Origin: Sulfurovum sp. | GTDB taxonomy: Bacteria; Campylobacterota; Campylobacteria; Campylobacterales; Sulfurovaceae | Length of the DNA: 60,799 bases | Direction: 5' to 3' | Assembly: GCA_030826885.1 (NCBI GenBank) | Contig: JAUUDF010000025.1 | Location: 1 to 60,799 of the forward strand | Shown here: piece by piece, positions 43,237 to 47,073 of the stretch | How the letters are laid out: every line of letters starts with the position of its first letter | Numbering within the stretch: position 1 is the stretch's first letter | Made by a program: the position numbers and the translations under genes | Notes under the pieces: model-generated | Database searches by the model: none | What the model was told of the DNA's origin: nothing | The model's input: only the letters and a program-made list of their open reading frames with translations

Positions 43237-44178
43237 TTATCCTAACTTGCTTATCTCTTCAATGGTATTTGCCAGAGACTGCATGTCGGAAACAACAAAG
43301 TGCGGCTTTTTAGTCGCACGGCGGTTGAGCCCCTTGAGCACGCCGCCATGACCAAATTCTACATAACAGTCGACTTCATCATCAAACTTTGCAATGGACT
43401 GTTTATAAAGTACCGGAGAGACCAGCTGTTTGGGCAGCAGTTCCAAAGCTTCGGCTTTGGAACTGTACTTTTCAGCTGTAACATTCGAAACAACAGGCGC
43501 AGTGAACTCGTCACGCAGTACCGTTTCAAGCTTTTCTACCAGCGGTGCAGTTGCACTCTCGAGCAGCGGGCAGTGGGAGGCAACAGACATATTCAGCAGC
43601 ATAGCACGTCTTGCTTTAGCCTCTTTTAAAATAGGCTCCAGTTCCTGCAGGTCGCCTTTGATACCGGCAATGACAATCTGCCCCTCTGCATTGTAGTTTA
43701 CCGGCCACACCTGCTTGCCTGCGGCTCTCTGCTCCTCACATATCTTTTCAACCGTCTCATCATCGAGTCCCAGAGAGACCAGCATCCCCACATCCTCTCC
43801 TTCACACGCCTGTGCCATCAGTTTTCCCCGCAAATTGACCAATTCGACCGCATCGATCGTATCGAGAGCACCCACAGCTGTCAATGCCGAAAATTCACCA
43901 AGAGAGTGTCCCAGTGCATAGACCGGTTTAATAGGCATCTCATTCCCAAAAAGTCTGTGGGCAATAGCTGAAACCAGCAAAATCGCCGGTTGTGTGAACT
44001 CTGTCTTTTCAAGCTGGTCATTCTCGCTGAAAAGCAGTGCTTTAAAATCAATACCCGTACGCTCGCTTGCTGCCTCTACCATCTCTTTGGCAATATCGGA
44101 GCTGTTGTAAAAATCTTCTCCCATACCTACAGCCTGAGACCCCTGTCCCGGAAATAAAAATGCACATTTGATCGACAT
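43237..44178 (-). CDS. fabD: Malonyl-CoA-ACP transacylase
   Basis: FabD loads malonate onto acyl carrier protein for fatty acid synthesis. The 313-aa protein shows FLFPGQGSQAVGMG near the start, the nucleophile elbow ALGHSLGEFSAL, and SVASHCPLLESA with the catalytic His. I start at the ATG at 44178 (MSIKCAFLF), which has GAGAGG upstream; the open frame to 44334 adds 52 residues unlike FabD. It is followed by mtnN. Confidence 0.96.
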   Translation of the reverse strand: MSIKCAFLFPGQGSQAVGMGEDFYNSSDIAKEMVEAASERTGIDFKALLFSENDQLEKTEFTQPAILLVSAIAHRLFGNEMPIKPVYALGHSLGEFSALTAVGALDTIDAVELVNLRGKLMAQACEGEDVGMLVSLGLDDETVEKICEEQRAAGKQVWPVNYNAEGQIVIAGIKGDLQELEPILKEAKARRAMLLNMSVASHCPLLESATAPLVEKLETVLRDEFTAPVVSNVTAEKYSSKAEALELLPKQLVSPVLYKQSIAKFDDEVDCYVEFGHGGVLKGLNRRATKKPHFVVSDMQSLANTIEEISKLG

Positions 44179-44509: not shown

Positions 44510-45001
44510 TCACACTGTTTTTCGGATCATCTTCACCAGTGACACTCCGTCAATAAGTGTCATATTTTTCTCTTCCACAAACCGTTCACACTCTTTGGTG
44601 AACCCGCTTGTGGTGATTACATATGCATGATCGACACCATACTCATACATCAATCCGTACATCTCGCGTATTACCTTTACCGTTACTTTTGCATCTTCAT
44701 ATTTTTTACACTGCACAATAGCATGTATGCGGCGTTTTTGCATCCACAGGTCAACCCCGCCGTCTGCGCCTCGCTGTTCGTTGCCTTTCACTTTCCATCC
44801 CTGCTCTCTAAACAGAAGCAGGCAAAGGTTCTCAAACTCCACCCAGGAGAGTTTTTTCAGCTTTTTAACCGATTGGTAACGACGCAAATAGCGTTTCGGT
44901 TTCGAACGCAGCAGCACACGCAACCCATGAAAAAGAAAAAGGGAGCAAAACAGTATCAGGATACCGGCAGAATAGATCTGTATATCACTATAGGATTTCA
45001 T
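44510..45001 (-). CDS. Membrane-anchored Mrr-type restriction endonuclease-like protein
   Basis: This 163-aa protein has one N-terminal membrane segment (YSAGILILFCSLFLFHGL) and a C-terminal Mrr_cat PD-(D/E)xK nuclease-like domain: WVEFENLCLLLFREQGWKV, GADGGVDLWM, HAIVQCKKY and VITTSGFTKECERF. The D...QxK pattern suggests an intact active site. Such membrane Mrr-like proteins are common but of unknown function, perhaps DNA degradation or uptake quality control. Confidence 0.82.
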   Translation of the reverse strand: MKSYSDIQIYSAGILILFCSLFLFHGLRVLLRSKPKRYLRRYQSVKKLKKLSWVEFENLCLLLFREQGWKVKGNEQRGADGGVDLWMQKRRIHAIVQCKKYEDAKVTVKVIREMYGLMYEYGVDHAYVITTSGFTKECERFVEEKNMTLIDGVSLVKMIRKTV

Positions 45002-45070: not shown

Positions 45071-46408
45071 CTAATGTTTTTGAAGATAGGTGTTGATCTC
45101 TGTAAAGAGTTTTTCGATTTCCAAATGGTATTTTCCGCTGTATACCGGCAGCATGTCGAGATTGTTATAGACAAAAAGCAAACTGATCTTTTCGGCAAGT
45201 TTCGCAAGACGCTCTGCCCCGATTATCTTTGCCTGTTTCTCCAGATCAATCGCGAACTCTTTGATCTGCCATGCCGCCTTGTTTTTGACTATATCTCTGA
45301 AATAACGGTCAGACCCGTCAAACGTTTCCAAAAAGTTTTTCAGTGCTTCTTTATAATCAAGCCCCATCGCTTTTGTCCTGGATAGTCCCTCCTCAATATT
45401 CAATACAATGGAAGTATCTGCTGCCTCCTCACGCTCCATCTCTTTAAGCATGGGAGAGAGCTTATGCTGAGACATGAGCTTGGACTGTATTTGTTCCATC
45501 TCTACATAGGCTTCTTCACTTTTTCGAAATGCATCGAGAATATATTTTTCCATATTGATAATAGGCTTGCCTGCCTCTTTTTTAATCTTTCTGTCCTTGA
45601 TGTCCTTTTCAAAAAGTGCAATGATCAATTCATAAATACTCTCCTGCATTACCGGTTTCACCAGGTATGCGGAAACAAATGCTTTGTGTTTCAAGTTTGC
45701 GGTTTCAGCATCTTCAAGGAGAACAAATTTCAAATCATGTTCTTTCTGTATGGTTGTTACCAATGATTCTATTCCTTCGGTCAGCAAATCATTTTCAAGA
45801 ACAAAAATATCGTAATGCGCAAGATTACTGCCGCGTTTTTTGTACTCCTCTGCGCCCACATCTACCTCATACAGGAAATATTTGAACATTTTGTGCAGAC
45901 TTTCTGAAACGATCCTGCTCTTGCAGATAAGTAGTACTTTTTTACCAAGCATGCCGATATCAGGCAATCGATAGTAGCGTCTGTTGCCAAGGTCATGCAA
46001 CTTAAAAGGAATGGAAATGCCTATTTTCCCCGTTGCAGGATCGAAAGATGCAGTACCATCAAGCCGTTCAAGTACAGATTTAAGTCTGGCATTTAAAAAA
46101 CTTTTTGCTTTCGATTCACTGATGTCCGTGTCATCAATCTCAAACGTAATCGCCTCTTCGTACAAAAAATCTTCCGGTGCATGCAGTGCCAGTACCACTT
46201 CCTTGTTATCCGTATTTTGGAAAACGAACGACAGCAGTTGCGTCAGCGCATGGGAAACAGACTCCGCGTCACCTTTCAGTTCTTTTGGAATTGTCGGGTC
46301 AATATCATAAACCAGCTCAATGTTTTTTTCTTTTCTTATAGACTCCAGTGCCGAAAAAATCGTCATCAAAACCATATTGATATCGAAATAATGCTCAACT
46401 TTTTTCAT
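45071..46408 (-). CDS. Pseudo-phosphorelay protein: dead HATPase, pseudo-receiver and pseudo-Hpt
   Basis: This 445-aa cytoplasmic protein copies the layout of a hybrid sensor kinase but its catalytic residues are changed. Residues 1-135 resemble HATPase_c just after a lost HisKA domain: KGDAESVSHALTQLLSF lacks the N-box Asn (Phe61), and the G1 box reads DDTDIS with both glycines gone. Residues 156-265 resemble a receiver: the acceptor Asp is Glu205 in YDIFVLENDLL, while the Lys of YLVKP (251) is kept. Residues 335-440 resemble Hpt (NIEEGLSRTKAMGLDYKEAL, IIGAERLAKLAEKI), but the phospho-His is Ile387. It probably acts by binding, not by phosphotransfer. I start at 46408 (MKKVEHYF). Confidence 0.78.
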   Translation of the reverse strand: MKKVEHYFDINMVLMTIFSALESIRKEKNIELVYDIDPTIPKELKGDAESVSHALTQLLSFVFQNTDNKEVVLALHAPEDFLYEEAITFEIDDTDISESKAKSFLNARLKSVLERLDGTASFDPATGKIGISIPFKLHDLGNRRYYRLPDIGMLGKKVLLICKSRIVSESLHKMFKYFLYEVDVGAEEYKKRGSNLAHYDIFVLENDLLTEGIESLVTTIQKEHDLKFVLLEDAETANLKHKAFVSAYLVKPVMQESIYELIIALFEKDIKDRKIKKEAGKPIINMEKYILDAFRKSEEAYVEMEQIQSKLMSQHKLSPMLKEMEREEAADTSIVLNIEEGLSRTKAMGLDYKEALKNFLETFDGSDRYFRDIVKNKAAWQIKEFAIDLEKQAKIIGAERLAKLAEKISLLFVYNNLDMLPVYSGKYHLEIEKLFTEINTYLQKH

Positions 46409-46569
46409 GATGTTCTCTCTCCCGGACACATAATATATGGAAATGGTAACACAAAATAGATAATAAGCCGCGTGAGCCGTGTGAAAAGAAGAAGAAAAAT
46501 AGAATAAGAGAAAAGACTCCCCCCCTTCTGCCTGCAGCATCAAAGGGGAAATTTAGAGAAGCATGCTCC

Positions 46570-47073
46570 CTAGTGGCAGCCGCATCCTGAACCACAGCTC
46601 TCGCCGCCGCCCACCTGACCGGTAGCGGCTTCGTCTGCTGTGGCATCTCTTTCGGAAAGTACCTTGACTGAGAACATCAGGTCTTTGCCTGCAAGCGGAT
46701 GGTTGAAGTCAATTGTCACTTCTTTGTCGTTGAAAGACTTCACGACAACCTGAACAGTCTGTCCGTCTTCACCCTGTCCGTAAAGTGTCATACCTTCTTT
46801 CAGGTCAACACCTTCAAACTGCTCGATAGGCAGTGTCTGTACCGCTTCCGGGTTGAGTTCACCGTATGCATCTTCCGCTTTGACAAGGATGTCTGCACTT
46901 TCACCTTCATTCATACCCTCAAGTGCTTTTTCAAGACCGGGAATGATCTGTCCTTTTCCTGTTACGAATTCAAGCGGCTGTGCACCTTTGTTCGAATCGA
47001 CGATTTCATTGCTTCCCGCTTCTTTGACTTCATACTCAATACCTACAACACTGTTTTCAGCTTTTACTGCCAT
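46570..47073 (-). CDS. slyD: FKBP-type peptidyl-prolyl isomerase SlyD
   Basis: SlyD is a proline isomerase and metallochaperone that delivers nickel to hydrogenases and urease. The 167-aa protein has the FKBP core with PLEFVTGKGQIIPGLEKALEG, the IF domain (about residues 70-125), NHPLAGKDLMFSVKV, and a C-terminal metal tail GGGESCGSGCGCH with Cys and His ligands. The tail is short, as in other Campylobacterota. It is transcribed alone between proA and the pseudo-phosphorelay gene. Confidence 0.93.
   Translation of the reverse strand: MAVKAENSVVGIEYEVKEAGSNEIVDSNKGAQPLEFVTGKGQIIPGLEKALEGMNEGESADILVKAEDAYGELNPEAVQTLPIEQFEGVDLKEGMTLYGQGEDGQTVQVVVKSFNDKEVTIDFNHPLAGKDLMFSVKVLSERDATADEAATGQVGGGESCGSGCGCH

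Follow-up and report, generated by a model that had tools for sequence, protein, structure and literature searches.

BarA/GacS tripartite kinases, with the module order HisKA-HATPase-pseudoREC-REC-Hpt, share the origin and order of their modules with the protein described here (P445). They differ in that P445 has no sensor, transmembrane (TM) segment, DHp module or second receiver (REC2), and its CA (HATPase) and Hpt modules are catalytically dead. ShkA of Caulobacter has the same CA-pseudoREC arrangement and is the best structural match of P445. Unlike P445, ShkA has DHp and REC2 and is active as a kinase, and it binds c-di-GMP at the β5-α5 face of its REC1-type pseudo-receiver. In RetS, DivL and other regulatory pseudo- or atypical histidine kinases, kinase modules became binding modules, as is predicted for P445, and RetS CA domains are among its top matches. 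However, RetS and DivL have the DHp dimerisation module, and the architecture of neither is that of P445. A DHp contacting a partner kinase or response regulator marks the regulatory pseudo-histidine kinases, and P445, without DHp, falls outside that class. The plant pseudo-HPt AHP6 is an Hpt bundle without the His and a competitor of phosphotransfer. P445 has the Hpt homology and the missing His in common with AHP6, and receiver binding by its bundle is predicted; AHP6 differs as a single-domain eukaryotic protein with no CA or receiver part. RitR and aspartate-less receivers resemble P445 in profile and fold, having the receiver fold with an incomplete site, but RitR is a response regulator that binds DNA. 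It is widespread among hybrid kinases to have a pseudo-receiver between CA and REC; in the BarA/GacS family this is the REC1 ahead of the phosphorylated receiver (PMC7010744), and the receiver of P445 is of the same REC1 type. A pseudo-receiver (PsR) is a receiver in which any of five conserved residues is missing, and PsRs are common (PMC12632262). Pseudo-kinases are established too, DivL being one of them (PMC4211667). Pseudo-kinases, pseudo-receivers and pseudo-Hpts are each known; in P445 all three are joined, dead and conserved. No paper on the P445 family was found in a search confined to open-licence papers.

The window is a stretch of 60,799 nucleotides from a Sulfurovum genome. P445 is encoded at 45071..46408 on the minus strand, and its reading frame is intact from ATG to stop over 445 codons, as the first-pass annotation had read it. 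A Shine-Dalgarno-like GGGAGAGAACATC lies immediately 5' of the ATG (46409..46421, minus strand). The ORF with its translation, the orthologs and the low omega define a 445-aa CA - pseudo-receiver - pseudo-Hpt protein. All of its parts are read on the minus strand: a degenerate CA/HATPase module (residues 5–137, 45998..46396), a linker (residues 138–152, 45953..45997), a pseudo-receiver of REC1 type (residues 153–268, 45605..45952), a variable linker (residues 269–333, 45410..45604) and a pseudo-Hpt helix-bundle module (residues 334–443, 45080..45409). The order HATPase-like, receiver-like, Hpt-like had been proposed by eye and is now borne out by structure prediction, NCBIfam BarA and the profiles of longer paralogs.

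Profile searches, which had been suggested as a check, answered only in part. No Pfam model matched P445 itself at E≤10, whereas NCBIfam BarA was the best model and matched residues 8–99 at 3.2e-7. Homology is therefore shown through paralogs, NCBIfam and structure. The structural check gave a CA fold, a receiver fold and a helix bundle. The full-length AF2 model, built from 10 sequences, shows a CA-like α/β sandwich (residues 5–137) and a C-terminal helix bundle (residues 338–443), and it did not resolve the receiver (pLDDT <50 over much of it). Foldseek of this model ranked ShkA first (2.5e-8), followed by RetS, ETR1, AdeS and other CA domains. The receiver part modelled alone reached pLDDT 75 and pTM 0.74, and its Foldseek list consisted mostly of receiver domains at modest TM-scores of about 0.5–0.6. 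The P445 profile matched the RitR receiver at 0.0048. Against canonical REC2, the P445 receiver gave only a weak match in a local comparison of profiles (E 0.0014); the receiver assignment therefore rests on the fold and on REC1 homology. For the C-terminal part, profile-profile comparison gave E 1e-13 against the Hpt regions of longer paralogs and E 1.5e-5 against His-bearing Hpts.

The conservation of P445 follows this module plan. Mean pairwise identity in the family is 0.29 in the linker 269–333 versus 0.53–0.55 in the modules, and in long paralogs a canonical second receiver occupies the place of this linker. In the first linker, R144, Y146, R147, L148 and P149 are each invariant in 28/28 family members, and the motif [KR]RxYRLP is also present in the long and the active relatives. 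Other well-conserved stretches are the KPVxQES segment of the receiver and IKEF..DLEK..IGA of the bundle. Together with the YRLP linker, these probably mark the CA-REC1 joint and the face where Hpt contacts receiver.

Catalytic residues were counted in 28 P445 family members, partial sequences included. HisKA is absent, as had been noted, because the protein begins at the CA domain; P445 is thus without the DHp/HisKA module and the phospho-accepting His of an active BarA-type kinase. In the CA module, the N-box Asn is replaced by Phe61, and Phe is found in all 27 members having the position. The G1 glycines (GxG) are both replaced in P445, by Asp95 and Ser97, but this loss varies among lineages: the first Gly is kept in 13 members and the second in 2, and the G1 region of L032 reads D-T-G-I-G. 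The ATP lid and the G2 box are deleted, as seen against a related 510-aa protein. In the receiver, the acid pair is Cys162-Lys163, and DD1 is C, S, V or A in the family and acidic in none. The receiver Asp is indeed Glu205 in the window copy. Glu is not fixed in the family, however, where site 205 is Glu in 14, Asp in 11 and Ser in 3, and close orthologs differ (Glu in L034, Asp in L035). The canonical T/S position is also lost (residues 231/232 are L/V/I and Q/E/K and others), and Lys251 is kept in 26 of 27 members. With a receiver fold, DD1, DD2, D and T missing and K kept, P445 has a pseudo-receiver by definition. In the bundle, LKG reads LEK and the Hpt His is Ile387, as previously called; this site is Ile in 24 members and otherwise Thr, Lys or Leu. 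Retention of the Asp and the His in orthologs had been named as evidence against dead modules. The outcome is mixed: the Asp does recur, always without an acidic DD1, while the His recurs in none.

P445 is constrained at the protein level. Full-length orthologs occur across Sulfurovum at 43–78% identity, and whole-protein dN/dS is 0.041–0.059 for pairs with unsaturated dS, which is purifying selection. The CA, receiver and Hpt regions are each constrained and the linker 269–330 least; in the two most closely related pairs of orthologs, omega is lowest in the receiver. Since omega is about 0.04–0.06, P445 is functional. Three dead modules under purifying selection therefore indicate a non-enzymatic role, in agreement with what the first-pass annotation had proposed.

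The position of the gene is conserved as well. A slyD-type FKBP peptidyl-prolyl isomerase gene lies directly upstream (46570..47073, minus strand), in the slyD-P445 order seen in the ortholog loci whose sequence covers this flank, and fabD (43237..44178, minus strand) is the downstream border of a conserved slyD-P445-fabD block. Where the sequence of an orthologous locus covers both flanks, the block runs on a single strand. In outgroup genomes, slyD and fabD are adjacent or have another gene between them. A neighbour at 44510..45001 (minus strand) encodes a membrane-anchored protein with an Mrr-type nuclease domain (Pfam Mrr_cat at 1.4e-31 in a close ortholog). It is an accessory gene, absent from many P445 loci, and in L021 an mrr-like ORF sits between slyD and P445. 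PADLOC matched the neighbour to Mrr-like nuclease domains; for P445, as a check on a defence role, it gave no match. Another optional gene, between the Mrr-like gene and fabD, encodes a 280-aa CA-REC paralog without Hpt and with long tree branches (L034:8168-8998, plus strand; also L035, L037–L039 and L054).

About half of the well-assembled genomes of the genus lack P445, and tblastn found no remnants near slyD in three genus genomes without it. A 304-aa form is present in G043. The gene is split into two overlapping ORFs in G055 (L047:2108-3423, minus strand) and broken close to the N-terminus in G020 (L016), which may be assembly error or real loss. The patchy presence, the split gene of G055 and the 304-aa form of G043 are what a decaying pseudogene would leave. 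For the intact copies this reading is refuted by the low omega, and with frames intact at 43–78% identity in a conserved position it is scarcely credible.

Judged from its sequence and relatives, P445 is a shortened, soluble derivative of a BarA-like hybrid histidine kinase and is catalytically inactive. NCBIfam BarA is also the best model for a 708-aa long paralog in the same genome (L040:1867-3990, minus strand; G000:C29; 5.8e-66) and for an active relative (L077; 2.2e-132), and this shared model, with the graded relatives, supports common descent with BarA-type kinases. L077 retains the HisKA His, N-box, G1, G2, canonical REC2 and Hpt His, and its HisKA, HATPase, receiver and Hpt domains are each above Pfam cut-offs. 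L040 has a membrane segment and a DHp-like region whose His has become Glu; its CA is degenerate, the second of its two receivers is canonical, and its Hpt has Met in place of the His. Some two thirds of the well-assembled genomes of the genus have a long paralog of this type. Relatives across the order form a loss series from L077 through L072 to the Sulfurovaceae long forms. In L072 (family f16) the HisKA His is already Glu, yet the CA is intact and the Hpt His is present. In all long forms sampled from Sulfurovum, and in most of those from other genera of the Sulfurovaceae, the HisKA His (nearly always Glu instead), the N-box Asn and the Hpt His are gone. In the Sulfurovum long forms, REC2 alone still has every catalytic residue (E/D-D-D-T-K in each one sampled). 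REC1 is non-canonical already in the active relatives. In trees of the CA-REC1 part, which are of the quick type with long branches, P445 and the short paralogs form one clade (100) that groups with Sulfurovaceae pseudo-hybrids (SH-aLRT 96–98).

The likely course of this descent can be outlined. An active Campylobacterota kinase of the order TM-HisKA-HATPase-REC1-REC2-Hpt would have lost the HisKA His in the Sulfurovaceae, and then ATP-binding residues and the Hpt His, giving a membrane pseudo-kinase with REC2 as its sole canonical site. One copy would then have shed its membrane part along with DHp and REC2, and come to lie between slyD and fabD. The earlier description of P445 as a complete phosphorelay protein does not hold, because the sensor, membrane anchor, DHp/HisKA module and canonical receiver of its relatives are all missing.

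Two observations concern other relatives. L077, L080, L050 and L056 have an N-terminal SPOR-like periplasmic region ahead of the TM segment (only L077 and L080 match Pfam SPOR, weakly and below cut-off), which suggests that the ancestral kinase had a periplasmic SPOR-like sensor. In family f1, the hybrid-kinase relatives L102 (2561-4072) and L084 have a last receiver that also lacks the Asp, and these proteins are apparently dead throughout.

A protein with the P445 architecture is also found in genus g70 (family f16), in four single-contig genomes. This 510-aa protein has CA, YRLP linker, pseudo-receiver and pseudo-Hpt, but no DHp and no REC2. Its gene (L097:3874-5406, plus strand; also L111–L114) lies just upstream of a hybrid kinase, with a gap of 11 bp in G248. 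A single origin of the 510-aa proteins and P445 was neither supported nor rejected by quick trees (p-AU 0.42), and the g70 protein looks like a parallel or ancestral form. Its place beside a hybrid kinase ties the P445 architecture to hybrid kinases whatever its origin.

The long paralog is a candidate partner of P445. Among 43 genomes of the genus (filtered at 90% completeness, with the window's own genome kept at 89%), 20 had both proteins, 2 only P445, 9 only the long paralog and 12 neither (Fisher p 0.001, phylogeny ignored). Strict pairing is ruled out by the two genomes with P445 only, G024 (one contig) and G015 (99% complete). G024 carries another pseudo-hybrid, a 677-aa type, but G015 had no match to this type at E≤1e-40; fixed pairing of P445 with either protein is therefore not general. 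The 677-aa type is also encoded in the window's genome (L092:2006-4039, plus strand; G000:C32) and at L093 and L094. It has a TM segment, no DHp, a degenerate CA and REC1, a canonical REC2 and an Hpt-like end without His. At L093 and L094 its gene adjoins one for a PP2C-type phosphatase, which in L093 has a kinase-like end. The P445 genome also has two independent Hpt-domain ORFs, so the REC2 of pseudo-hybrids could get phosphate from elsewhere. One of the genome's stand-alone Hpt proteins (L099:1223-2191, minus strand; G000:C43), with one TM helix and the His present (LTHSIKG), is a possible donor for orphan receivers.

We tentatively favour the view that P445 is a cytosolic protein that acts without catalysis by binding to two-component proteins; both the binding role and the partners are inferred, and a titrator or scaffold remains the leading idea. 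Hpt-type helix bundles normally bind receivers. The docking surfaces left in P445 would be this bundle and the CA-REC1 unit, which includes the invariant YRLP linker. Through them, P445 could dock to receivers, whether those of the long pseudo-hybrids, those of response regulators or both kinds, and/or to the CA-REC modules of kinases. Once docked, it would compete with, or scaffold, phosphotransfer done by other proteins, an action comparable to that of AHP6 or RetS. The retained structure suits ligand binding equally well, and a small-molecule sensor is the main rival, although an unlikely one: c-di-GMP or another small molecule would bind to the pseudo-receiver, and the signal would be relayed by the CA and pseudo-Hpt parts. 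Full-length ShkA is the best PDB match to the whole P445 model (303 columns), c-di-GMP is documented to bind a pseudo-receiver that lies between CA and a true receiver (PMC7010744), and the receiver region is where omega is lowest in the two closest pairs. The P445 genome has 19 GGDEF matches, which leave room for a ShkA-like c-di-GMP reading. However, the TM-scores of the ShkA match are low and the receiver part of the model is poor, the ShkA binding residues could not be mapped onto P445, and no known ligand motif was seen.

The remaining explanations keep some phosphorylation chemistry, real or mimicked, in P445. A constitutively phosphorylated scaffold, as first suggested, would have Glu205 mimicking phospho-Asp and the receiver locked active. 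Glu at the Asp position with K251 kept agrees with this, and Glu is a common replacement in pseudo-receivers (PMC12632262), but the T/S position is lost and site 205 lies in REC1, which was non-canonical already in the ancestor line. Because site 205 varies among Glu, Asp and Ser, a conserved phospho-mimic is improbable. Still more so is residual phosphotransfer through non-canonical residues such as D205/E205 or the Hpt bundle. Asp205 in some members, the second G1 Gly in two and the D-T-G-I-G of L032 would allow it, but the lack of any acidic DD1, the I/T/K/L at the Hpt site and the loss of N-box, lid and G2 argue strongly against it.

Proteins like P445 bear on how signalling systems are counted. 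One survey of signalling in Campylobacterota used HisKA plus HATPase as its criterion for counting kinases (PMC9239204), and the P445 family would escape such counting. Counts by HisKA plus HATPase, or by Pfam, overlook proteins of this kind. A bolder possibility, which we consider less probable than the ligand sensor and more so than the phospho-mimic, is that the membrane "kinase" and soluble P445 are both dead and REC2 alone is alive; a separate His-bearing Hpt would phosphorylate REC2, and the pseudo-Hpt and CA-REC1 surfaces of P445 would read or gate its state. If true, a whole tripartite kinase would have turned into a phospho-sensor complex in Sulfurovaceae. With living relatives at several steps of loss, this family makes it possible to ask which non-catalytic surfaces of a phosphorelay merit keeping.
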